DNA from: Streptantibioticus silvisoli
GTDB taxonomy: Bacteria; Actinomycetota; Actinomycetes; Streptomycetales; Streptomycetaceae
Direction: 5' to 3'
NCBI RefSeq assembly: GCF_027947535.2
Contig: NZ_JAAGKO020000018.1
Coordinates: forward strand, 1 to 64,000
Length of the DNA stretch: 64,000 nucleotides
In this document: piece by piece, positions 41,464 to 63,696 of the stretch
How the letters are laid out: the number at the start of each line of letters is the position of its first letter
Numbering within the stretch: position 1 is the first letter of the stretch
Notes under the pieces: model-generated
What the model was told of the DNA's origin: nothing
What the model saw: only the letters and a program-made list of their open reading frames with translations
Databases searched by the model: none
Translations under genes and position numbers: made by a program

Positions 41464-42453
41464 TCAGACCGGTTGCGCCGCCTGGCGCGGCGCGCCGGGG
41501 AGCGGCTTGCCGTACCAGAGTTCGATGAGGCGGGCGGCGATGGAGATGCCGCTGGGCGGCAGGATGTCACCGGCCTCGATGCCCTGGCGCAGGTCGTCGC
41601 GGGAGAACCAGCGAGCTTCGTGGATCTCCTCGCCGTCCACCTGGATGGTGTCGCTGCCGGCCCGGGCCATGAAGCCCAGCATCAGGCTGGACGGGAACGG
41701 CCACGGCTGGCTGGCCACGTAGCTGACCTCGGCGACCTCGACGCCGGCCTCTTCGGCGACCTCGCGGACGACGGCCTGCTCGATGGACTCACCGGGCTCG
41801 ACGAAGCCGGCGAGCGTGGAGAAGCGACCGGCCGGCCAGTGCATCTGGCGGCCGAGCAGCGCGCGGTCCTGGCCGTCGGTGACCAGCATGATCACCGCGG
41901 GGTCGGTGCGCGGGTAGTGCTCGGCGGCGCAGTCCGGGCAGCGCCGGACGTGGCCGGCGGCGACGATGGTGGTGCGGGCGCCGCAGCGGGAGCAGAAGCG
42001 GTGCATCCGCTGCCAGTTCTCCAGCGCGACGGCGTGCACCATCAGGCCTGCGTCCCGTTCGGACAGCTGGCCGCCGACCTCGCGCAGGCCGGCCGGGCGG
42101 GCGGCTGCGTCCATGCGGCCCGGCAGGCTGTCCTGCTGGAGGGCGAAGTAGTGCGTACCGCCCTCGTCGGTGCCGAGGAAGTAGCGGTGGTTCTCGCTGA
42201 CCGGGGCGTCGAACGGCGGTACCAGGACCAGTTCGGTCCGGCCGTCGGCGGTGTCCTCGACCAGCACCTGCCCGCCGGAGACCACCAGGACGCGGGTGGA
42301 CGGATGGCTCCAGGCCGCCGCGAGCCACGCCTCGTCGAGGCGGTGGTGGGCGGCGCGGTCGACGCCGGGGCGGCTGAGGGCCAGCGGACGCATGGGCAAG
42401 GGCGCTTCTGCTAGGGACAAGGTCGCTTCCAACTCCCCCTGGGACGTGGACAA
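41464..42453 (-). CDS. nudC: NAD(+)/NADH pyrophosphatase (NudC-like)
   Basis: NudC hydrolyses NAD(H), and in some bacteria NAD-capped RNA, to NMN and AMP. The protein has an N-terminal domain, a zinc ribbon (FCSRCG and RRCPDC), the Nudix box (GFVEPGESIEQAVVREVAEEAGV split by a short gap), and the NudC hallmark SQPWPFPSSLM. The start is uncertain. The frame reaches a TTG at 42453, whose -10-like TACGCT lies 6 nt upstream. GGGGGAG could instead serve an inner TTG near 42420, and an ATG lies at 42393. All retain the conserved domains. It is convergent with the mycoredoxin gene, 21 bp away. Confidence 0.88.
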   Translation of the reverse strand: MSTSQGELEATLSLAEAPLPMRPLALSRPGVDRAAHHRLDEAWLAAAWSHPSTRVLVVSGGQVLVEDTADGRTELVLVPPFDAPVSENHRYFLGTDEGGTHYFALQQDSLPGRMDAAARPAGLREVGGQLSERDAGLMVHAVALENWQRMHRFCSRCGARTTIVAAGHVRRCPDCAAEHYPRTDPAVIMLVTDGQDRALLGRQMHWPAGRFSTLAGFVEPGESIEQAVVREVAEEAGVEVAEVSYVASQPWPFPSSLMLGFMARAGSDTIQVDGEEIHEARWFSRDDLRQGIEAGDILPPSGISIAARLIELWYGKPLPGAPRQAAQPV

Positions 42454-42498
42454 TTGTCGAGCGTACGGCCGGCTCCGGGGCGGAGGCGGCCGCGCGGG

Positions 42499-43896
42499 TC
42501 AGCGGGGCCGATTGTCGGCCAGGTCGGCCCAGAGGTACGCGGTGGTCTCCACGCCCTTGAGCAACAGGTCCAGCTCGACCTTCTCGTTCACCGAGTGCCA
42601 ACCGTCGGACGGCACGGAAATTCCCAGGAAGAGCACCGGGGCCCCGAGAACGTCCTGAAGGTCGGCGGCCGGACCGGAACCACCCTCACGAGTGAACCGG
42701 ATCGGCTGCTGGAAGGCGCGGCCCATGGCGCGGACCACCGCCTGGAGGGCCGGATGGTCGAGCGGGGTCAGGCAGGGGCGGGTGGCGCCCCAGAAGGTGA
42801 TCTCGTGCCGGATGCCGGCCGGCAGCGTGGCGGCGACCCAGTCGGCGACCGCCTGCTGGACCTTGTCGGTGTCCTGGCCGGCGACCAGCCGGAACGACAG
42901 CTTGAGCTGGGCGGTGGACGGGACGACGGTCTTGCCGCCGGGGCCGCCGTAGCCGCCGTGGATGCCGTTGACCTCGGCGGTGGGGCGGGCCCAGACGCGT
43001 TCCAGGGTGCTGTAGCCGGTCTCGCCGAGGGTGGCGGAGGACTTGGCGGTGCGCAGCCAGGCGTCCTCGTCGAAGGGCAGTTCGGCGAAGAGGGCGCGCT
43101 CGTCGTCGGTCAGCGGCGTGATGCCGTCGTAGAAGCCGGGGATCGCGACCCGGCGGTCCCGGTCGTGCAGGGCGGCGGCCAGCCGGGCGGCCTCGGTGGC
43201 CGGGTTGGGCACCGCGCCGCCGAACGAGCCGGAGTGGATGTCCTGGGCGGGCCCGTACAGGTCGATCTGGCAGTCGGCGAGGCCGCGCATGCCGGTGCAG
43301 ACGGTCGGGGTCTCGGCGGACCACATGCCGGTGTCGGAGACGATCACCGCGTCGCAGGCCAGCCGGTCGGCGCGGTCGCGCAGCAGGGCGGCGAAGTTCG
43401 GCGAGCCGGACTCCTCCTCGCCCTCGATGAGCAGCTTGAGGTTGACGGCCGGCGTGGTGCGGCCGGTGGCGGCGAGGTGGGCGCGGACGCCGAGGGTGTG
43501 GAAGAAGACCTGGCCCTTGTCGTCGGCGGCGCCGCGCGCGTAGAGGCGGCCGTCGCGGGTCTCGGGCTCGAACGGGTCGCTGTCCCAGCCGTCCTCGCGG
43601 GCGGCGGGCTGGACGTCGTGGTGGCCGTAGACCAGCACCGTCGGGGCGTCCGGGTCGCCGGAGGGCCACTCGGCGTAGACCGCGGGCAGCCCGGCCGTCG
43701 GCCAGACCTCGGTCACCGGGAAGCCGGTGGCGCTCAGCTGCGCCGCGAGCCATTCGGCACTGCGGGCCACGTCGCCGGCCCGGGCGGGGTCCGCCGAGAC
43801 GGACGGAATGCGCAGCCAGGCGGCGAGGTCGGCGAGGAACGCCTCGCGGTGGGCCTCGATGTACGCGCGGACGGCGTTGTCCGTGGTGCTGGTCAT
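42499..43896 (-). CDS. M20-family dipeptidase
   Basis: The 465-residue protein is an M20 metallopeptidase like the carnosinase/DapE relatives called dipeptidases in streptomycetes. Zinc and catalytic motifs appear in order: VYGHHDVQPA, ARGAADDKGQ, the catalytic Glu pair LIEGEEESGSP, SDTGMWS and a late SVPSDGWHSVNE with the last His ligand. The dimerisation domain begins near DIHSGSFGGAVPNP. The start at 43896 (MTSTTDNAVRAYI) is ATG. Stop and nudC are separated by about 45 bp, so the pair may be co-transcribed. Confidence 0.92.
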   Translation of the reverse strand: MTSTTDNAVRAYIEAHREAFLADLAAWLRIPSVSADPARAGDVARSAEWLAAQLSATGFPVTEVWPTAGLPAVYAEWPSGDPDAPTVLVYGHHDVQPAAREDGWDSDPFEPETRDGRLYARGAADDKGQVFFHTLGVRAHLAATGRTTPAVNLKLLIEGEEESGSPNFAALLRDRADRLACDAVIVSDTGMWSAETPTVCTGMRGLADCQIDLYGPAQDIHSGSFGGAVPNPATEAARLAAALHDRDRRVAIPGFYDGITPLTDDERALFAELPFDEDAWLRTAKSSATLGETGYSTLERVWARPTAEVNGIHGGYGGPGGKTVVPSTAQLKLSFRLVAGQDTDKVQQAVADWVAATLPAGIRHEITFWGATRPCLTPLDHPALQAVVRAMGRAFQQPIRFTREGGSGPAADLQDVLGAPVLFLGISVPSDGWHSVNEKVELDLLLKGVETTAYLWADLADNRPR

Positions 43897-55941: not shown

Positions 55942-57120
55942 TCAGTAGACCGGCTTGTCGGGCTCGATGGTGTTGACCCAGCCGATGACGCCGCCGCCGA
56001 CGTGGACCGCGTCGGAGAAGCCGGCGTTCTTCAGCACGGCGAGCACCTCGGCGGAACGCACCCCGGTCTTGCAGTGCAGCACGATGCGCTTGTCCTGCGG
56101 CAGGTCCTGAAGCGCGGTGCCCATCAGGAACTCGTTCTTCGGGATCAGCCTGGCGCCGGGGATCGAGACGATCTCGTACTCGTTCGGCTCGCGGACGTCG
56201 ATGATCTCGATGTTCTCGCCGGCGTCGATCCAGTCCTTGAGCTGCCGGGGGGTGATGGTGGACCCGGCGGCCGCCTCCTGGGCCTCCTCGCTGACGACGC
56301 CGCAGAACGCCTCGTAGTCGATCAGCTCGGTGACGGTCGGGTTCTTGCCGCAGACCGCGCACTCGGGGTCCTTGCGGACCTTGACCTGGCGGTACTGCAT
56401 CTCCAGGGCGTCGTAGATCATCAGCCGGCCGACCAGCGGTTCACCGATTCCGGTGAGCACCTTGATCGCCTCGGTGACCTGGATCGAGCCGATGGACGCG
56501 CACAGCACGCCCAGCACGCCGCCCTCGGCGCAGGACGGCACCATGCCGGGGGGCGGGGGCTCGGGGTAGAGGCAGCGGTAGCAGGGGCCGTGCTCGCTCC
56601 AGAAGACCGACGCCTGGCCGTCGAACCGGTAGATCGAGCCCCACACGTACGGCTTGTTCAGCAGCACGCACGCGTCGTTGACCAGGTACCGGGTGGCGAA
56701 GTTGTCGGTGCCGTCCACGATCAGGTCGTACTGGGCGAAGATCTCCAGCACGTTGTCGGCCTCGAGCCGCTCCTGGTGGAGGATGACGTTCACGTACGGG
56801 TTGATGCCCTTGACGGTGTCGCGCGCGGACTCCGCCTTGGGACGGCCGATGTCGGCCTGGCTGTGGATGATCTGGCGCTGGAGGTTGGACTCGTCGACCT
56901 CGTCGAACTCGACGATGCCGAGGGTGCCGACACCGGCGGCGGCCAGGTACATCAGGGCCGGGGAGCCGAGGCCGCCGGCCCCGACGCACAGCACCTTGGC
57001 GTTCTTCAGGCGCTTTTGTCCGTCCATCCCGACGTCCGGGATGATCAGGTGACGGGAGTACCGGCGGACCTCGTCGACGGTGAGTTCGTCGGCCGGCTCG
57101 ACCAGGGGTGGCAGCGACAC
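55942..57120 (-). CDS. moeZ: Adenylyltransferase/sulfurtransferase MoeZ
   Basis: MoeZ adenylates the C-termini of sulfur-carrier proteins such as MoaD and transfers sulfur to them through its rhodanese domain. The 392-residue protein has the E1-like ATP site VGAGGLGSPAL (about 47-57), RQIIH, DGTDNFATRYLVND, and zinc CxxC pairs (CYRCLYP, CAVCG). The C-terminal rhodanese domain carries the active-site Cys in HCKTGVRSAE. GGAG precedes the GTG at 57120. It should serve molybdopterin together with moaE and other thio-cofactor pathways. Confidence 0.94.
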   Translation of the reverse strand: MSLPPLVEPADELTVDEVRRYSRHLIIPDVGMDGQKRLKNAKVLCVGAGGLGSPALMYLAAAGVGTLGIVEFDEVDESNLQRQIIHSQADIGRPKAESARDTVKGINPYVNVILHQERLEADNVLEIFAQYDLIVDGTDNFATRYLVNDACVLLNKPYVWGSIYRFDGQASVFWSEHGPCYRCLYPEPPPPGMVPSCAEGGVLGVLCASIGSIQVTEAIKVLTGIGEPLVGRLMIYDALEMQYRQVKVRKDPECAVCGKNPTVTELIDYEAFCGVVSEEAQEAAAGSTITPRQLKDWIDAGENIEIIDVREPNEYEIVSIPGARLIPKNEFLMGTALQDLPQDKRIVLHCKTGVRSAEVLAVLKNAGFSDAVHVGGGVIGWVNTIEPDKPVY

Positions 57121-57277: not shown

Positions 57278-58030
57278 TCACGCCAGCCAGGGGCGGTCCC
57301 GCAGGATGGACGCCAGATCGCGCCAGTACGTCGGCAGCCCCTCGAACGGATCGGTGCCGGCGATGCCGTCCCGGTCGGTGACGAAGACCGATCCGGCGCC
57401 CTGCCAGCGGGCTATCCGCAGGGCCGTCTCAAGATGCGGGCGCGGCACCCCGTGGACGAGGTGGCAGAACTTCTCCGGCGGGCAGTCGGCCGTCCACTGC
57501 GGCGTCTCCGACCAGCGGTAGTCGCTCCAGCGGCCGTTGAACGTCACCAGCTGGTCGGCGGCCTCGGCGTACCCGGGGTGCGGATGGGTGCCGTGGCCCA
57601 GCACCAGGTGCCGGTCCCCGCCCCGGCCGTCGCCGGCGCCGGACAGCTCGCCCAGGGTGCCGGTCACCCGGCGGCAGGCGGCCAGCAGTGCACGATCCGC
57701 CGGGGCCCGGTCCAGGTAGAAGCCGTCCACCCGGTACCAGTCCAGGTAGTGCTGCGCGTCGCCGATCAGCTCGCCGAGGGTCCGGGCGCCGTACGCCATG
57801 TCCAGCCGGCCCAGCACCCGCACTCCGGCCTCCCGCAACCGGCCCGCGGCGTGCGCGTACCCCGGGTCGGCCCGGGTGCCGGGGCTGCCGGAGACGTTGA
57901 GCACCACCCAGTGCAACGGCGTGCCGGGGCGGGCGAGTTCGGCCCACTCGTCCGGGGCCGTCAGCGGGTCGGCGTAGGCGGGCACCCCCAGGCCGCCGAG
58001 CGCCGCCGCCTGCCGCGCGGGCCCGCTCAC
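57278..58030 (-). CDS. Spherulin-4-like (spherulation-specific family 4) protein
   Basis: A 250-residue TIM-barrel-type protein of the spherulin-4 family, whose fungal member Sph3 (GH135) cleaves galactosaminogalactan. Family features seen: VPAYADPL at the first strand, LHWVVLNVSGSPG, VLGRLDMAYGARTLGELIGDAQHYLDWYRVDGFYLDR (as consecutive segments) and VTFNGRWSDYRW. Where active members have Asp-Glu, this one has YLDRAP, and the later Glu position reads TFN. It may therefore lack the acidic catalytic pair. No signal peptide is seen. The GTG at 58030 overlaps the epimerase stop (GTGA), so the two are coupled. Confidence 0.78.
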   Translation of the reverse strand: MSGPARQAAALGGLGVPAYADPLTAPDEWAELARPGTPLHWVVLNVSGSPGTRADPGYAHAAGRLREAGVRVLGRLDMAYGARTLGELIGDAQHYLDWYRVDGFYLDRAPADRALLAACRRVTGTLGELSGAGDGRGGDRHLVLGHGTHPHPGYAEAADQLVTFNGRWSDYRWSETPQWTADCPPEKFCHLVHGVPRPHLETALRIARWQGAGSVFVTDRDGIAGTDPFEGLPTYWRDLASILRDRPWLA

Positions 58031-58929
58031 ACCCGGCACGCCGCCTCCATCCAGATGTCGGCCAGCGACTCCTCCAGCGCGATCCGCGGCCGCCAGCCGA
58101 GCCGGTCGCGCGCGGTGCGCACGTCGGCCTGCTGCCACACCCCGCAGCCGTCCGGGTACGGCGGCACGGCGACCGGGTCCTCCAGCTCGTGCAGGCTGCC
58201 GTCGAACCCGGCCGCGCGGGCCAGGGTGGCGACGACGTCCTTGAGCCGCACCGCCCGGCCGGTGCCGATGTTGACCACGCCCTGCGCCGCCGACAGCGAC
58301 GCGGCGTGCACCGCGCGGGCCACGTCGCGCACGTCGACGAAGTCCCGCTGCGCCGTCAGCCCGCCGAGCTTCAGCTCCGGGTCGCCGTTCTGCATCACCC
58401 GGCGCAGCGCCTCCGCCAGCCGGCCCAGCGGCGAGGCGGTGGGGGTGCCGGGGCCGACCGGGGAGAAGACCCGCAGCACGATGGCGTCCAGGTCGGAGCC
58501 CAGCACGAGCTCGCCGGCCGCCAGCTTGCTGACGCCGTACGGTCCGCCGGGCCGCGGCACCGCGTCCTCACCGGTGGAGGAGCCGACCGGGCTCGGGCCG
58601 TACTCCGCCGAACAGCCGAGGTGGACCAGCCGGGCGCCGCAGCGGCTGCGGCGCAGCGCCTCGCAGACGGTGGCGACGGCCACGGTGTTGTGCCGGACCA
58701 GGTCGCGGGCGCCGCCCCGGGTGGTGCCGGCGCAGTTGACGACGACCCCGGGGTGGACGGCGTCCAGGAAGCGGGCCAGCGCTCCCGGGCTGCCGTCGGC
58801 CAGGTCGAACCGCACGTCGGCGTCGTCGCGGCGGCCCAGCGCGGTCAGCTGCACGGCCGGGTCGGCCAGCAGCCGTTCGGCGACGTGCCGGCCGAGGAAC
58901 CCGTCGGCGCCCAGCAGCAGCACTCTCAT
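58027..58929 (-). CDS. NAD(P)-dependent sugar-nucleotide epimerase-like protein
   Basis: A 300-residue extended SDR enzyme of the kind that acts on nucleotide sugars. The cofactor loop is LLLGADGFLGRHVAERLL, the active-site Ser lies in HLGCSAEYG, and the catalytic YxxxK is GPYGVSKLAAGE. INIGTGRAVRLKDV-like sequence (VVNIGTGRAVRL) is typical of UDP-sugar epimerases. It is the middle gene of the leftward cluster containing the DUF3492 glycosyltransferase. The ATG at 58929 overlaps the stop of a 19-codon ORF (ATGA). Confidence 0.85.
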   Translation of the reverse strand: MRVLLLGADGFLGRHVAERLLADPAVQLTALGRRDDADVRFDLADGSPGALARFLDAVHPGVVVNCAGTTRGGARDLVRHNTVAVATVCEALRRSRCGARLVHLGCSAEYGPSPVGSSTGEDAVPRPGGPYGVSKLAAGELVLGSDLDAIVLRVFSPVGPGTPTASPLGRLAEALRRVMQNGDPELKLGGLTAQRDFVDVRDVARAVHAASLSAAQGVVNIGTGRAVRLKDVVATLARAAGFDGSLHELEDPVAVPPYPDGCGVWQQADVRTARDRLGWRPRIALEESLADIWMEAACRV

Positions 58930-58985
58930 CGGGCGCCGCCACGGCTGGCCCGGGTGTCCGGTAGCGGTCGGGAGGGGAAGTTCAC
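58926..58985 (-). CDS. Possible 19-residue coupled leader peptide
   Basis: GTG at 58985 follows AGGAGAG at good spacing and encodes MNFPSRPLPDTRASRGGAR. The stop codon overlaps the epimerase ATG as ATGA. The epimerase itself has no ribosome-binding site of its own, so this short ORF may load ribosomes for it by coupling. Confidence 0.4.
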   Translation of the reverse strand: MNFPSRPLPDTRASRGGAR

Positions 58986-59076
58986 GTGTCTCTCCTGAGG
59001 GATATGTCTCCGGCCCGCCGGACGGCTCGGCCGGCGGGCGCGGCGGTCTCGGTGCCGGACGGCGGACCGGCCGGGG

Positions 59077-60297
59077 TCACCGGGCGGGCGCCGTCGGGGT
59101 GTGGGAAGGCGGTCCGCCGAACAGGGCGGCGGCGTACGCCGCGTCGTACGGCGGCGGGGCGGCGGGGCGGTCACCGCCGTGGGCGGCGGCCCGGCCGAGC
59201 GCCGGCAGGGCGTACAGCGCGAGCGCCAGCGCCCCGGCACCGCAGACCGCCGCCTGGACCACGCCCGGCCCGCCGACCGTGACCAGGGCACGCAGCGGTG
59301 AGGTGGCCCCGGCGCACGCCGCCGCGGCCAGCCCGGCCGCCTGCGCCGCGCACACGGTGCCCAGGCCCCAGGCGGCGGCCGGCGCGAAGCCGTGCACCGC
59401 CAGCAGCTGGGCGGTGAACAGCAGCACGCCGAGCGCGGCGGCACCGGTCAGCCCGACCAGGTCGACGCCGTCCACGCGGTGCCCCAGCAGGGCGTACGCC
59501 GCGCCGACCAGCGCCAGCAGCGCCACCGTGAACAGCCCCAGGGCCGCCACCAGCAGCGGGCGCACCCCGGCGCGGAACCCGGCGAGGCCGTGCGAGTCGG
59601 CCAGCCGGCCGCGCGCGCCGCGGGCGAACCGGCGCGCGCACCACGCGGCCGGCAGCAGCGCGAGGGCGCGGGCCAGGAACCCGGCGGCCGAGACCGGATC
59701 GAGCAGCCCGCGCGGCCGGGCCGAACCGTCGCCCAGCAGCGCCTGGAGCGCGTACGGCCCGTACAGCGCGAAGGCCAGCAGCCAGCAGGTCCACAGCGTG
59801 CTGCCCCGGGCGCCGGACGCGCGCAGCGGTCCCGAACGCGCCGCGGTCCGGGCGGCGAGCGCGACCGCCGCCAGCGCCACGCCGCCGGTGACCGGCGCGA
59901 CCCCCGCGGGCGTCAGCCGGGAGACGGCCACCCCGGCGCCGCAGACCACGCCGGGCAGCAGGTGCAGCGCGACCGCCCGCCGGCCCATCGGCTGCTCGGG
60001 GCAGACCCCGGTGCCGTCCCGCTCGGGGCAGTCCGGGGCGTGGTCGCGCGGGACGCGGGCGTACAGCTCCTCGGCGAGGGTGAAGACGTCCCGGTGCCGG
60101 AACCGGGCGGCGATCCGGTCGGTGATGCCGTGCGCCTCCAGGCCGGCCGCGATCTCCAGCGGGTCGACGGCCCGGGCGCACAGGTCGTAGTGGCGGTGTA
60201 TCAGCGCGAGCACCGGGTCCACCGGCCCACGGAGCCGCCCGGCCCCGGCACCGGCCTCGGGTGCGCCGCCGGGTCTGCCACTGCGCGTCTGGGTCAT
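59077..60297 (-). CDS. Multi-pass membrane protein of the polysaccharide-type cluster
   Basis: A 406-residue protein with a soluble N-terminus of about 100 residues (LALIHRHYDLCARAVDPLEIAAGLEAHG split; RHRDVFTLAEELYARVP; CPERDGTGVCPEQP) and then about ten hydrophobic segments. The tail is Ala/Pro-rich. I do not recognise a named family, but its position between a PelF-like glycosyltransferase and an epimerase suggests a role in glycan polymerisation or export, the slot filled by PelG in Pel loci. GGAGGA precedes the ATG at 60297. Confidence 0.75.
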   Translation of the reverse strand: MTQTRSGRPGGAPEAGAGAGRLRGPVDPVLALIHRHYDLCARAVDPLEIAAGLEAHGITDRIAARFRHRDVFTLAEELYARVPRDHAPDCPERDGTGVCPEQPMGRRAVALHLLPGVVCGAGVAVSRLTPAGVAPVTGGVALAAVALAARTAARSGPLRASGARGSTLWTCWLLAFALYGPYALQALLGDGSARPRGLLDPVSAAGFLARALALLPAAWCARRFARGARGRLADSHGLAGFRAGVRPLLVAALGLFTVALLALVGAAYALLGHRVDGVDLVGLTGAAALGVLLFTAQLLAVHGFAPAAAWGLGTVCAAQAAGLAAAACAGATSPLRALVTVGGPGVVQAAVCGAGALALALYALPALGRAAAHGGDRPAAPPPYDAAYAAALFGGPPSHTPTAPAR

Positions 60298-60400
60298 CGG
60301 GGTCCTCCTGGGTGAGTACGGGACGGGGTGCGCCGGGGGGCGGGGCGGGAGGCGGTACGCCGGGAGGCGGACGCGGTGCGCCGGGCACCGGTGCGGGCGT

Positions 60401-62341
60401 TCACCGGGCGTCCGGGCGGACTCCGCCGACCACGCCGCGGGCACCGGTGTCGCCGACCAGGCCGAACCCGCCGACCGTGCCGACTCCGCCGGGCCCGACC
60501 GGTCGGCGGTCCGCGGGGGCGGGGGCGGTCGGGGCGGGGAGGGGGCGCGCGGAGGCGGTCGGGACCGGTGCGGCGGGGAGCGCGGCCGGTGCCGGCGTTC
60601 CGGGGTCGGTCGCCGTGATCGCGGCCGTCGTCACGGTTGCCGACGCGGCCCACCCGGGGCCGGTGGGGGCCGGTGCGGTCCAGTGGCCGGGGACGTGCGC
60701 CTCGGCGGGGTGGGTGAAGGGCACGGCGGCGGGGCGGGCGGGGCGGTGGGCGACGAGGTCGAGGTACAGCGCGCGGAAGGCGGCGACGTTCCGCTCGACG
60801 GTGAACAGCTCCAGGGCGCGGGCCCGGGCGGCGGCGCCCAGCAGGGAGCGGCGCACCGGGTCGCGCAGCAGCGCACCGCACGCCTCGGCGAGCGCGTGGG
60901 GGTTGCGCGCCGGGACGACCAGGCCGGTGCCGCCGATCACCTCGCGGACCGCGCCGACGTCGGTGGAGACGGTGGGCCGGCCGCAGAACATGGCCTCGAC
61001 GAGGGTGCCGGGGAAGCCCTCGACCGCGCTGGAGAGCACCACGACGCCGCCGGCCGCGTAGGCGTCGGCCGGCGTGGGCACGTAGGGCGAGCCGACCTCC
61101 TCGAAGGCCACCGGGCTCTCGCCGGCCGTGACGGTGTCGGCGGCCTCGTCGGGGAAGAGCTGGGCGGCCAGCGCCCGGCACTGCGCGAGGTAGCCGGGGT
61201 CGGCCGGGCCGTCGGCGATGATCCGCAGGCGGGCCGCCGGGAGTGCCCCGCGTATCTCGGCGAAGGCGTGCAGCAGGGCGACGAGGTCCTTGGCGGGCCC
61301 GATCCGGCCGACCCACACCAGCGTGGTGTCGTCCGGATCGGGCGCGGCGGCCTCGGACGCCTCGCCGACGGCCGTCAGCGCGGCGGCGTTCATGCCGGGG
61401 TGGACGGTGGTGATCCGGGCGCGGTCGGCGCCGCAGTGCTCCTGCCAGCGGCGGACGTGCGCGTTGCCCGCGGTCAGGGCGTCCGCGTGCCGGTAGACCT
61501 CGCCGGCCAGCAGGCGGTGGAACGCGCCGGACAGCGCCCGTACCGCCGGCGCCGGGCGGCCGCCGTCGCCGCGCAGGTAGTGCTCGCGCAGCCGGACGGC
61601 GTACTCGGTGACCAGCAGCGGGGTGCCGCACCAGCGGGCGGCCAGCACGCCGGGCAGCGCGGCCGGGCCGCCGGACGCGGCGTGGCACAGGTCGGCCCCG
61701 CCGAGCGCGTCGGCGCCGTACCAGGGCGCGGACAGCGGGCGCAGCGCGCGTTCCAGGAACTCGGCGGCGGCCAGCAGGTCGCGGGGGCGCGGGGCGGCGA
61801 CCGGGCGGGCGGCGCCGGGGGCGCGGCAGGCGTCCTCCAGGGCGCGCATCGCGCTCTGGCCGAGCGGCGCGGCGCCGAGTCCGCCGTACTCACGGGCCAG
61901 GTCGGCCAGGGCGTACAGCCCGTCGGCGAAACGGTCCTTCACCGGGTCCCTCAGGACCGCGCCCCCCGCCCCGGAGCCGGTCGCGCTCCCCGCAGTGGTG
62001 CTCTCCGCAGCGCTCCCCCCGTCGGCGTCCGGGTGCGGCGTGCCGTTGCCGGCGTCGGCCAGTGCGCCGGCCAGCTCGCGGTAGGCGTCGCGGAACCGGC
62101 GGCGGGCGGCACGGCCCCGGGGGCCGGGGCCGGCCGGCGGGGGGCCGTCCAGCGGGAGTTCGGCGACCCGGCGCACCTGGCCGGGCAGCGGCAGCCGGTG
62201 CGGTGGCCGGCCGGCGGCGCGGGTCCGGGCGTACACGTCGAGTTCCTGGTCGGCCAGCCCGCGTACGAGGCGGTCGCACCAGACCCATCCGTCACCCGAC
62301 GGGTACGGATAGCCACCCTCAGTGAGCAGCGCGATGCGCAT
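60401..62341 (-). CDS. DUF3492-type GT4 glycosyltransferase (PelF-like)
   Basis: The 646-residue protein opens with the DUF3492 signature MRIALLTEGGYPYPSGDGWVWCD (seen in two halves) and has a GT4 Rossmann domain. TTLVWVGRIGPAKDLVALLHAF is the nucleotide-sugar side, and EGFPGTLVE is the E-x7-E motif. PelF, which polymerises the Pel polysaccharide from UDP-sugars, is the best-known relative. The first 210 residues contain low-complexity inserts, and the last 120 are Pro/Ala/Gly-rich and unlike PelF. GGGGGTG precedes the ATG at 62341. It is first in the leftward cluster. Confidence 0.87.
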   Translation of the reverse strand: MRIALLTEGGYPYPSGDGWVWCDRLVRGLADQELDVYARTRAAGRPPHRLPLPGQVRRVAELPLDGPPPAGPGPRGRAARRRFRDAYRELAGALADAGNGTPHPDADGGSAAESTTAGSATGSGAGGAVLRDPVKDRFADGLYALADLAREYGGLGAAPLGQSAMRALEDACRAPGAARPVAAPRPRDLLAAAEFLERALRPLSAPWYGADALGGADLCHAASGGPAALPGVLAARWCGTPLLVTEYAVRLREHYLRGDGGRPAPAVRALSGAFHRLLAGEVYRHADALTAGNAHVRRWQEHCGADRARITTVHPGMNAAALTAVGEASEAAAPDPDDTTLVWVGRIGPAKDLVALLHAFAEIRGALPAARLRIIADGPADPGYLAQCRALAAQLFPDEAADTVTAGESPVAFEEVGSPYVPTPADAYAAGGVVVLSSAVEGFPGTLVEAMFCGRPTVSTDVGAVREVIGGTGLVVPARNPHALAEACGALLRDPVRRSLLGAAARARALELFTVERNVAAFRALYLDLVAHRPARPAAVPFTHPAEAHVPGHWTAPAPTGPGWAASATVTTAAITATDPGTPAPAALPAAPVPTASARPLPAPTAPAPADRRPVGPGGVGTVGGFGLVGDTGARGVVGGVRPDAR

Positions 62342-62715
62342 CAAGCACCCCCTCAGAGCTGGGAGAAGACGATGCGCCGACGCTATGCCGACATGACGGT
62401 GGCGCGGCGGACGGTTGTCCGCCGCGCCATCAGAAGGGGTGAACGGCCGTAACTTTCACCGCCACCGCGCGTTGCGCGAGCCGCCGCAGCGGCCCGGACC
62501 TGCGGGAACGGTCCGCCGCCACTCGTCACCGGTGCGGCGGCGGGCCTCGGCGGCGGACGGCGGGCGCCGGCGATCCGGGAGCGGACACCGCCCCCGGCGC
62601 CGACCGGCCCGACAAGCGGCCGGCCACCCGTGAGCGGCCTCAGCGATCCGTCAACGGCCCCTCAGCGGCCTCAGAAACCCGTAGGAGCCGGCCTCGGCGC
62701 CCCGCCGGCGACCCG
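62342..62715. other. Intergenic region with hairpin upstream of the glycosyltransferase cluster
   Basis: A perfect 13-bp inverted repeat (62400-62412 with 62417-62429, loop ggtt) lies about 60-90 bp upstream of the glycosyltransferase start and could be an operator or RNA hairpin. A leftward TAGCGT near 62380 is a possible -10. A tiny plus-strand ORF of 26 codons (62372-62452, MRRRYADMTVARR...) has GGGAGAAG before its ATG but spans the hairpin. From 62455 to 62700 the sequence is GC-rich with short repeats of ctcagcggcc and shows no gene. Confidence 0.55.
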
Positions 62716-63696
62716 TCAGCGCCCCTCGGTGGAGGCCACGAGGTCGCGGAACGCCTGCTCGACGATGGCCGGGTGTTCCATCATGGTGACGTGGCCGCCC
62801 TCCGGCACGGTCACCAGTCGCGAGTCGGGGAACGCCTTCGCCGCGCGGTGGGCCATCCGGAAGGCGACCAGCCGGTCACGGCCGCCGTAGACCAGCAGCG
62901 TCGGCGCCAGCACCTTGCGGGCCTGCCGCCACAGCGAGTGCGGGCCGCCGAGGGTGTACGCGTCGACGATGCCGCGGGTCGAGCGGATCATCGCGTCCCA
63001 GAAGTACGGCAGTTCCATCCGCCGTTCGTACTCACGGGTGGCCGCCTCGAACTCCGCCTCGCCGAAGTTGGCCGGGTCGCCGAAGCACAGCGAGATCAGC
63101 GCCTCGGTGCGGCGGCGCGGGCTCCAGTCGCGGGTGGCCCGCATGTACAGCTGCGGCAGCCCCGGCACCGAGGCCAGCGCGGTCGGCCAGGCGGTGCGCT
63201 GCGGGCGGATCTCGGGCAGCGCGGGCGAGATCAGCGTCAAGGTGCGCACCAGGTCCGGGCGCACCGCGGCGATCCGGGTGGCGACCGCGCCGCCGAGGGA
63301 GTTGCCGAACAGGTCGACCGGCCCGGCGCCGCGGGCCTCCAGCAGCCGCACGACGGCGCGGGCGTGGCCGTTGACCGAGTAGTCGCCGTCGTCCGGGGGC
63401 GGGGAGAAGCCGAAACCGGGCAGGTCGACCGCCTGGCCGTCGACCAGGTCCACGAGCCGGTCCATCAGCGCCGACCAGTTCTGCGAGGAGCCGCCGAGAC
63501 CGTGCACGAACACCGCCGGGCGCAGACCCTCGCGCTCCGGGCGGCGGGAACGCACGACCAGCGAGCACCCCGTCAGGGTGACCGTCGTGACCGTCTCGCG
63601 GTCGCTGTCCGCGGGCGGCGGTCCGGCGGGCGGAACGGATGCCGGAGCGCCGGCCACCGGGGCCGAGGAGGGTTCGGTCGACTCTGTCGAGGACAT
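62716..63696 (-). CDS. Alpha/beta-fold hydrolase
   Basis: A 326-residue hydrolase with a disordered Ser/Pro-rich N-terminus of about 30 residues. The oxyanion strand is FVHGLGGSSQNW, the nucleophile elbow GNSLGGAV (Ser), the acid lies in LVYGGRDRLV, and the His in VPEGGHVTMMEHP. A variable cap domain covers PQLYMRATRDWSPRRRTEAL. The substrate is unknown. It is divergent from the truncated gene at the window edge. Confidence 0.88.
   Translation of the reverse strand: MSSTESTEPSSAPVAGAPASVPPAGPPPADSDRETVTTVTLTGCSLVVRSRRPEREGLRPAVFVHGLGGSSQNWSALMDRLVDLVDGQAVDLPGFGFSPPPDDGDYSVNGHARAVVRLLEARGAGPVDLFGNSLGGAVATRIAAVRPDLVRTLTLISPALPEIRPQRTAWPTALASVPGLPQLYMRATRDWSPRRRTEALISLCFGDPANFGEAEFEAATREYERRMELPYFWDAMIRSTRGIVDAYTLGGPHSLWRQARKVLAPTLLVYGGRDRLVAFRMAHRAAKAFPDSRLVTVPEGGHVTMMEHPAIVEQAFRDLVASTEGR

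Follow-up and report, generated by a model that had tools for sequence, protein, structure and literature searches.

Does a compact group of four genes in Streptantibioticus silvisoli make a galactosamine polymer, as its gene content invites one to think? The genes lie side by side on the minus strand at 57278–62341 of the 64,000-nucleotide stretch of DNA analysed here (the window) and encode a DUF3492-containing glycosyltransferase of family 4 (GT4), a membrane protein, an extended short-chain dehydrogenase/reductase (SDR) and a spherulin-4-like protein. An earlier note on this DNA had taken them for a candidate Pel-like or galactosaminogalactan (GAG)-like system, minimal or divergent. We confirm the four adjacent leftward genes, whose reading frames are clean, and favour, at a probability of roughly 0.65, the reading that the locus descends, reduced and repurposed, from an exopolysaccharide operon of Agd3 (GAG-like) type in actinobacteria. 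The window locus is unlikely to manufacture and export a galactosamine polymer; more probably its genes have been recruited to an envelope-glycan function that is induced in development.

Common ancestry with Agd3-type operons

The order GT4, membrane protein, SDR, spherulin-4, moeZ dominates among 80 loci retrieved via the SDR from named Streptomycetaceae species and is also found in most of 20 further loci. The arrangement is therefore not a matter of chance, and the co-conservation by which the earlier note had proposed to judge its cluster is borne out. The SDR occurs in nearly all of 298 Streptomycetaceae genomes; spherulin-4 is less universal, and some genera carry the other three genes without it. 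One genome of genus g9 (locus L181) keeps the SDR with both the GT4 and the membrane protein gone.

Full operons are found at sites unrelated to moeZ, both in Streptomyces and elsewhere among actinobacteria; they encode an Agd3-like deacetylase, a PelF-like GT4, a membrane protein, a LegB-like dehydratase, a nucleotidyltransferase, an SDR, a spherulin-4 protein and a GH114 protein. They share gene order with the window locus, and their GT4, membrane protein, SDR and spherulin-4 are homologous to those of that locus; the Agd3-containing bacterial operon type was already published by Bamford et al. 2020 (PMC7229062). Of 13 members, 12 have a first-gene product (AGD) with a match to Pfam Agd3_CE, at weak scores (best E 1.9e-6), and 6 have one with a match to CBM87; the conserved DD and HTxxH positions of this protein agree with the published catalytic motifs; a PDB profile search with the AGD protein did not return Agd3 (6NWZ). 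The dehydratase scores 455 bits against a LegB cut-off of 475. Because several of these operons combine a LegB-like dehydratase, a nucleotidyltransferase and an SDR resembling GDP-4-keto-6-deoxy-D-mannose reductase (RMD), their polymer may contain a 6-deoxy-hexosamine. Within Streptomycetaceae, complete or nearly complete operons of the Agd3 type were seen at L190–L193, L077–L083, L087–L089 and L095, and at L041, described next.

The link to the moeZ site comes from a single locus, L041 of the early-branching genus g16, which holds a whole operon there (L041:399-11386): Agd3-like protein, PelF-scoring GT4, long membrane protein, dehydratase, nucleotidyltransferase, SDR, spherulin-4 and GH114. 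A GT4 tree whose outgroup consists of PelF proteins encoded next to PelG has L041 as sister to all moeZ-linked GT4s (94% SH-aLRT; moeZ-linked clade 99%), and in the SDR tree its SDR falls with the moeZ clade, which is split from the full-operon SDRs at 100/100. The ancestor at the moeZ site thus most likely carried the whole operon as L041 does, and common ancestry of the window locus with GAG-type operons is well supported. Of the proposed link to the fungal galactosaminogalactan cluster, ancestry through full Agd3/GH114/GH135 operons and L041 stands, but a polymer function at the window locus has weak support.

Missing from the window locus are GH114, the dehydratase and the nucleotidyltransferase, one GH114 being encoded elsewhere in the same genome. 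The earlier note had also seen no deacetylase of PelA or Agd3 type; the locus indeed has none, and a search of the genome with the AGD protein of genome G016, run without a positive control, gave no match.

Eroded and retained sites in the four proteins

The spherulin-4 protein (57278–58039, minus strand; 253 residues; PF12138, 86 bits) is what the earlier note called it. Its AlphaFold model matches Sph3 (5D6T) with E 5.5e-15 and TM 0.76, so that the GH135 fold is kept. The catalytic residues of Sph3 are D166 and E222 (PMC10485009, PMC12054363); in the window protein D166 is retained (D110), E167 corresponds to R111, and the acid/base E222 is replaced by N168. The E222 position is Glu in 17 of 17 full-operon, outside or secreted homologues vs none of 43 aligned moeZ-linked proteins; an earlier count of 47 locus homologues found it kept only by L041 and L045. 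E167 was dropped as a decisive GH135 residue, intact full-operon homologues also having Q or R there. By inspection, the window protein has no signal peptide. The note had described SDR and spherulin-4 as coupled by GTGA. A GTGA does exist at 58030, but the conserved junction, found in 78 loci, is a 13-nucleotide overlap; for this reason 58039 is the more likely spherulin-4 start, and the overlap suggests translational coupling, though by another route than GTGA.

A second spherulin-4 protein is encoded on contig C52 of the same genome (53083–53949), about 10 kb from a GH114 gene (41921–42706); the pair is L055/L056. Its catalytic Asp and Glu are intact, both N-termini resemble secretion signals, and no DUF3492 glycosyltransferase lies near the pair; the two proteins possibly degrade foreign GAG- or Pel-like polymers.

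The GT4 (60401–62341, minus strand; 646 residues) has DUF3492 (76 bits) and GT4 domains and is PelF-like, but it scores 87.4 bits against the PelF equivalog NF038011, below the cut-off of 100 and the 161–175 of its full-operon relatives, and in the tree it is separate from the PelF proteins encoded next to PelG. Among GT4s whose N-terminus is complete, the ancestral GGVS loop is present in all those of full operons and in L041, and in none of the other moeZ-linked ones; in the window protein SGDGWVW stands in its place. The donor-site residues R346, K351 and the EX7E pair E441/E449 are kept here, and these motifs persist in most Streptomyces; they are partly or wholly gone in the S. cinnamoneus group and several other genera. 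At L176–L180, L182, L183 and L185 the R/K and EX7E motifs are lost with the gene still in place, making these proteins apparent pseudo-glycosyltransferases. A twister-sister ribozyme match inside the gene (61074–61156, minus strand; 21.7 bits, gathering threshold 34) is sub-threshold and probably due to chance.

The membrane protein (59077–60297, minus strand; 406 residues), whose gene is preceded by an AGGAGG site, had been credited with about ten helices. An AlphaFold2 model built from 46 aligned sequences (pLDDT 80.8, pTM 0.75) gives about eight, preceded by a helical domain near the N-terminus (residues ~28–81) that is conserved. No Pfam family covers the window protein, none of the 46 aligned family members matches Pfam PelG, and the HMM–HMM comparison proposed earlier, run with hhalign against actinobacterial PelG, returned a probability of 0.3%. 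The moeZ-linked form is a homologue of the full-operon one (99.8%, E 3e-29) but has lost a segment from its interior: beyond the N-terminal domain the median length is 301 residues in moeZ-linked vs 394 in full-operon proteins (n=5) and 518 in L041. A MOP/MATE flippase identity was rejected (Foldseek best E 0.41; MATE TM 0.28).

The SDR (58027–58929, minus strand; 300 residues; Pfam Epimerase, 130 bits) is the most conserved gene of the locus. It had been called a sugar-nucleotide epimerase, yet its nearest relatives are GDP-4-keto-6-deoxy-hexose reductases and not GalE/Uge3: the best profile match is RMD (99 bits; GalE 64), and the galE equivalog gives 40 bits against a threshold of 262. Y131 and K135 are kept and the catalytic Ser position is Cys106. 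This Cys is found in 106 of 116 moeZ-linked copies, early branches keeping the Ser, which is present in L041 and in all full-operon copies.

Leader and developmental expression

Upstream of the GT4 lies a conserved 78-nucleotide leader (62382–62459, minus strand), recognized by a covariance model, in which the BldM-box-like GTTACG-N4-TTCACCCCTT is followed by a covarying hairpin. This inverted repeat (62398–62431, minus strand), with a near-invariant GGAC-AACC-GTCC core, shows 94.6% pairing across 36 distinct sequences; it has many G-U pairs and 23 double-change cells vs 9.8 in shuffles. On the Streptomyces side of the family, the model detects the leader at the locus (down to 1e-20). L041, L176, L177 and L182 give weak matches where the leader would be expected, and the full operons searched at other sites give none. 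L181 retains the leader upstream of its SDR. Rfam returned only sub-threshold matches, which we take as chance. The TTCACC-N6-GGTGG element appears to resemble the BldM Group I box, TCACcCgnncGgGTGA (PMC4125116), the window copy fitting less well than the consensus.

SCO5178 is moeB/moeZ in Streptomyces coelicolor (PMC4340878), so that by position SCO5174 corresponds to the GT4, SCO5175 to the membrane protein, SCO5176 to the SDR and SCO5177 to spherulin-4. SCO5174, SCO5175 and SCO5177 are up 8–14-fold in differentiated (MII) mycelium, among the most MII-induced conserved genes (PMC3610822), and a SCO5174 transposon insertion mutant has reduced actinorhodin (PMC6585502). Our literature search found no paper tying SCO5174–5177 to a polymer.

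Two neighbours are not proposed as parts of the system: moeZ (55942–57120, minus strand), the conserved downstream housekeeping gene that marks the site, and an alpha/beta hydrolase (62716–63696, minus strand), a frequent upstream neighbour. Directly upstream of the GT4, L034, L038, L045, L046, L051, L052, L084 and L184 have an ABC transporter module of peptide type (checked against Pfam for L045 and L046, assigned by layout similarity for the rest) and other genomes a DUF3152 protein; the window has neither.

Competing readings and known systems

The claim that the window locus makes and exports an aminosugar glycan is doubtful and fits the full operons elsewhere better, because Pel membership fails, the SDR is RMD-like, the catalytic Glu and GGVS are lost, and the membrane protein is shortened. 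Compared with the likely ancestor at the moeZ site, the Streptomyces lineage lacks the deacetylase, GH114, dehydratase and nucleotidyltransferase there; the GH135 acid/base, the GT4 GGVS loop, the membrane-protein segment and the SDR serine have eroded, presumably with loss of activity, while the SDR stayed conserved. In the reading of a reduced, repurposed operon, the SDR would modify C4 of a nucleotide sugar in differentiating mycelium, and the GT4, its donor-site residues intact here, would work next to the membrane protein, transferring a sugar on the inner side of the membrane. The GH135-fold protein, in the cytosol, would bind glycan instead of cutting it. Such a pathway would yield a glycan or glycoconjugate of the cell envelope during development and not a galactosamine polymer that is deacetylated and exported, with the leader, through its BldM-like box and RNA hairpin, coupling expression to development. 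More tentatively, and with the odds against it, one may picture a near-universal Streptomycetaceae developmental locus in which an exopolysaccharide operon has turned into mostly non-catalytic proteins (a pseudo-hydrolase, a shortened membrane protein and, in some genera, a pseudo-glycosyltransferase) around one conserved SDR, under an undescribed structured RNA leader.

Several points weigh against the favoured reading. Survival of R346, K351, E441 and E449 means that glycosyl transfer may be intact and that a polymer could therefore still be made, and a deacetylase of another family, encoded elsewhere, could act in trans. In L045 the spherulin-4 protein still has the GH135 Glu. The complete gene set at moeZ is known from one genome, L041, where secondary gain is conceivable, although the shared gene order speaks against it. 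The SCO numbers were matched by position beside moeZ, not by sequence. Finally, the median dN/dS values (SDR 0.15, moeZ 0.14, spherulin-4 0.40, GT4 0.43, membrane protein 0.53), by which the SDR appears to be under strong purifying selection, were estimated by the Nei–Gojobori method from pairs that are not independent, in GC-rich genomes.

In a minimal Pel/GAG-like system that still works, the SDR would be a UDP-GlcNAc 4-epimerase and spherulin-4 the hydrolase that processes an exported galactosamine polymer. In its favour are the common ancestry with GAG-type operons, the developmental induction and the intact GT4 donor sites of most Streptomyces. We regard it as improbable: the acid/base Glu is lost in all 43 aligned spherulin-4 proteins of the locus, the window's spherulin-4 protein lacks a signal peptide, the SDR is nearest to RMD with Ser changed to Cys, the shortened membrane protein matches neither MOP nor PelG, and no deacetylase of the AGD family was found at the locus or, in the uncontrolled search, in the genome. 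Slightly less probable still is that only the SDR matters, in a housekeeping nucleotide-sugar role, the other three genes being slowly decaying passengers. The SDR is more universal than spherulin-4 and has a dN/dS as low as that of moeZ; the GT4 loses all donor-site motifs in some genera and spherulin-4 is absent in some, and L181 keeps leader and SDR without GT4 or membrane protein. Yet the open frames of GT4, membrane protein and spherulin-4 persist family-wide with dN/dS well below 1, SCO5174, SCO5175 and SCO5177 are induced together, and mutation of SCO5174 has a phenotypic effect. That the genes form a true but divergent Pel operon, to which the DUF3492/PelF-like GT4 would point, is very improbable: that GT4 misses the PelF cut-off and lies outside the PelF clade, the membrane protein is unrelated to PelG, and no PelG was found in the genome. 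As the earlier note had observed for PelD, the Pfam domains of the locus and of the genes directly beside it, in a scan limited to that region, include no PelD, PelE or PelA.

The reading of a repurposed operon corrects an easy mis-annotation, in which spherulin-4 hydrolase, PelF and epimerase are together taken as a polymer system. It makes visible the stepwise dismantling of a GAG-like operon at a fixed site, draws attention, in a genus that has been studied intensively, to a conserved locus with strong induction when the mycelium differentiates, and points to intact GAG-like operons in Streptomyces.

Among known systems, the Pel operon (pelABCDEFG in Pseudomonas aeruginosa; Gram-positive pelDEADAFG, PMC7112168) shares with the window locus a GT4 of DUF3492 kind, but the window GT4 falls outside the PelF clade, and PelG and, in the locus Pfam content, PelD, PelE and PelA were not found. 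RMD (2PK3, 6X3B) is what the SDR matches best, in sequence as well as in profile comparison, and has the same xEYG and YxxxK motifs; it differs in that the Streptomyces-clade SDR has Cys at the catalytic Ser position and no 4,6-dehydratase accompanies it at the window locus. The fungal galactosaminogalactan cluster (uge3, sph3, gtb3, agd3, ega3) likewise unites a GH135-fold protein, an SDR and a glycosyltransferase, whereas the window locus has no Agd3 or Ega3, its SDR is RMD-like and not GalE/Uge3-like, and its spherulin-4 protein is cytosolic and predicted inactive. Agd3-type operons (PMC7229062) have or commonly have the Agd3 and GH114 that the window locus lacks, together with the dehydratase and nucleotidyltransferase, and differ further from that locus in its lost GH135 acid/base and GT4 GGVS loop and its shorter membrane protein; they nevertheless share with it a cytoplasmic GT4, a multi-pass membrane protein and, in some actinobacterial members, spherulin-4, the homologous genes standing in the same order as in the window.

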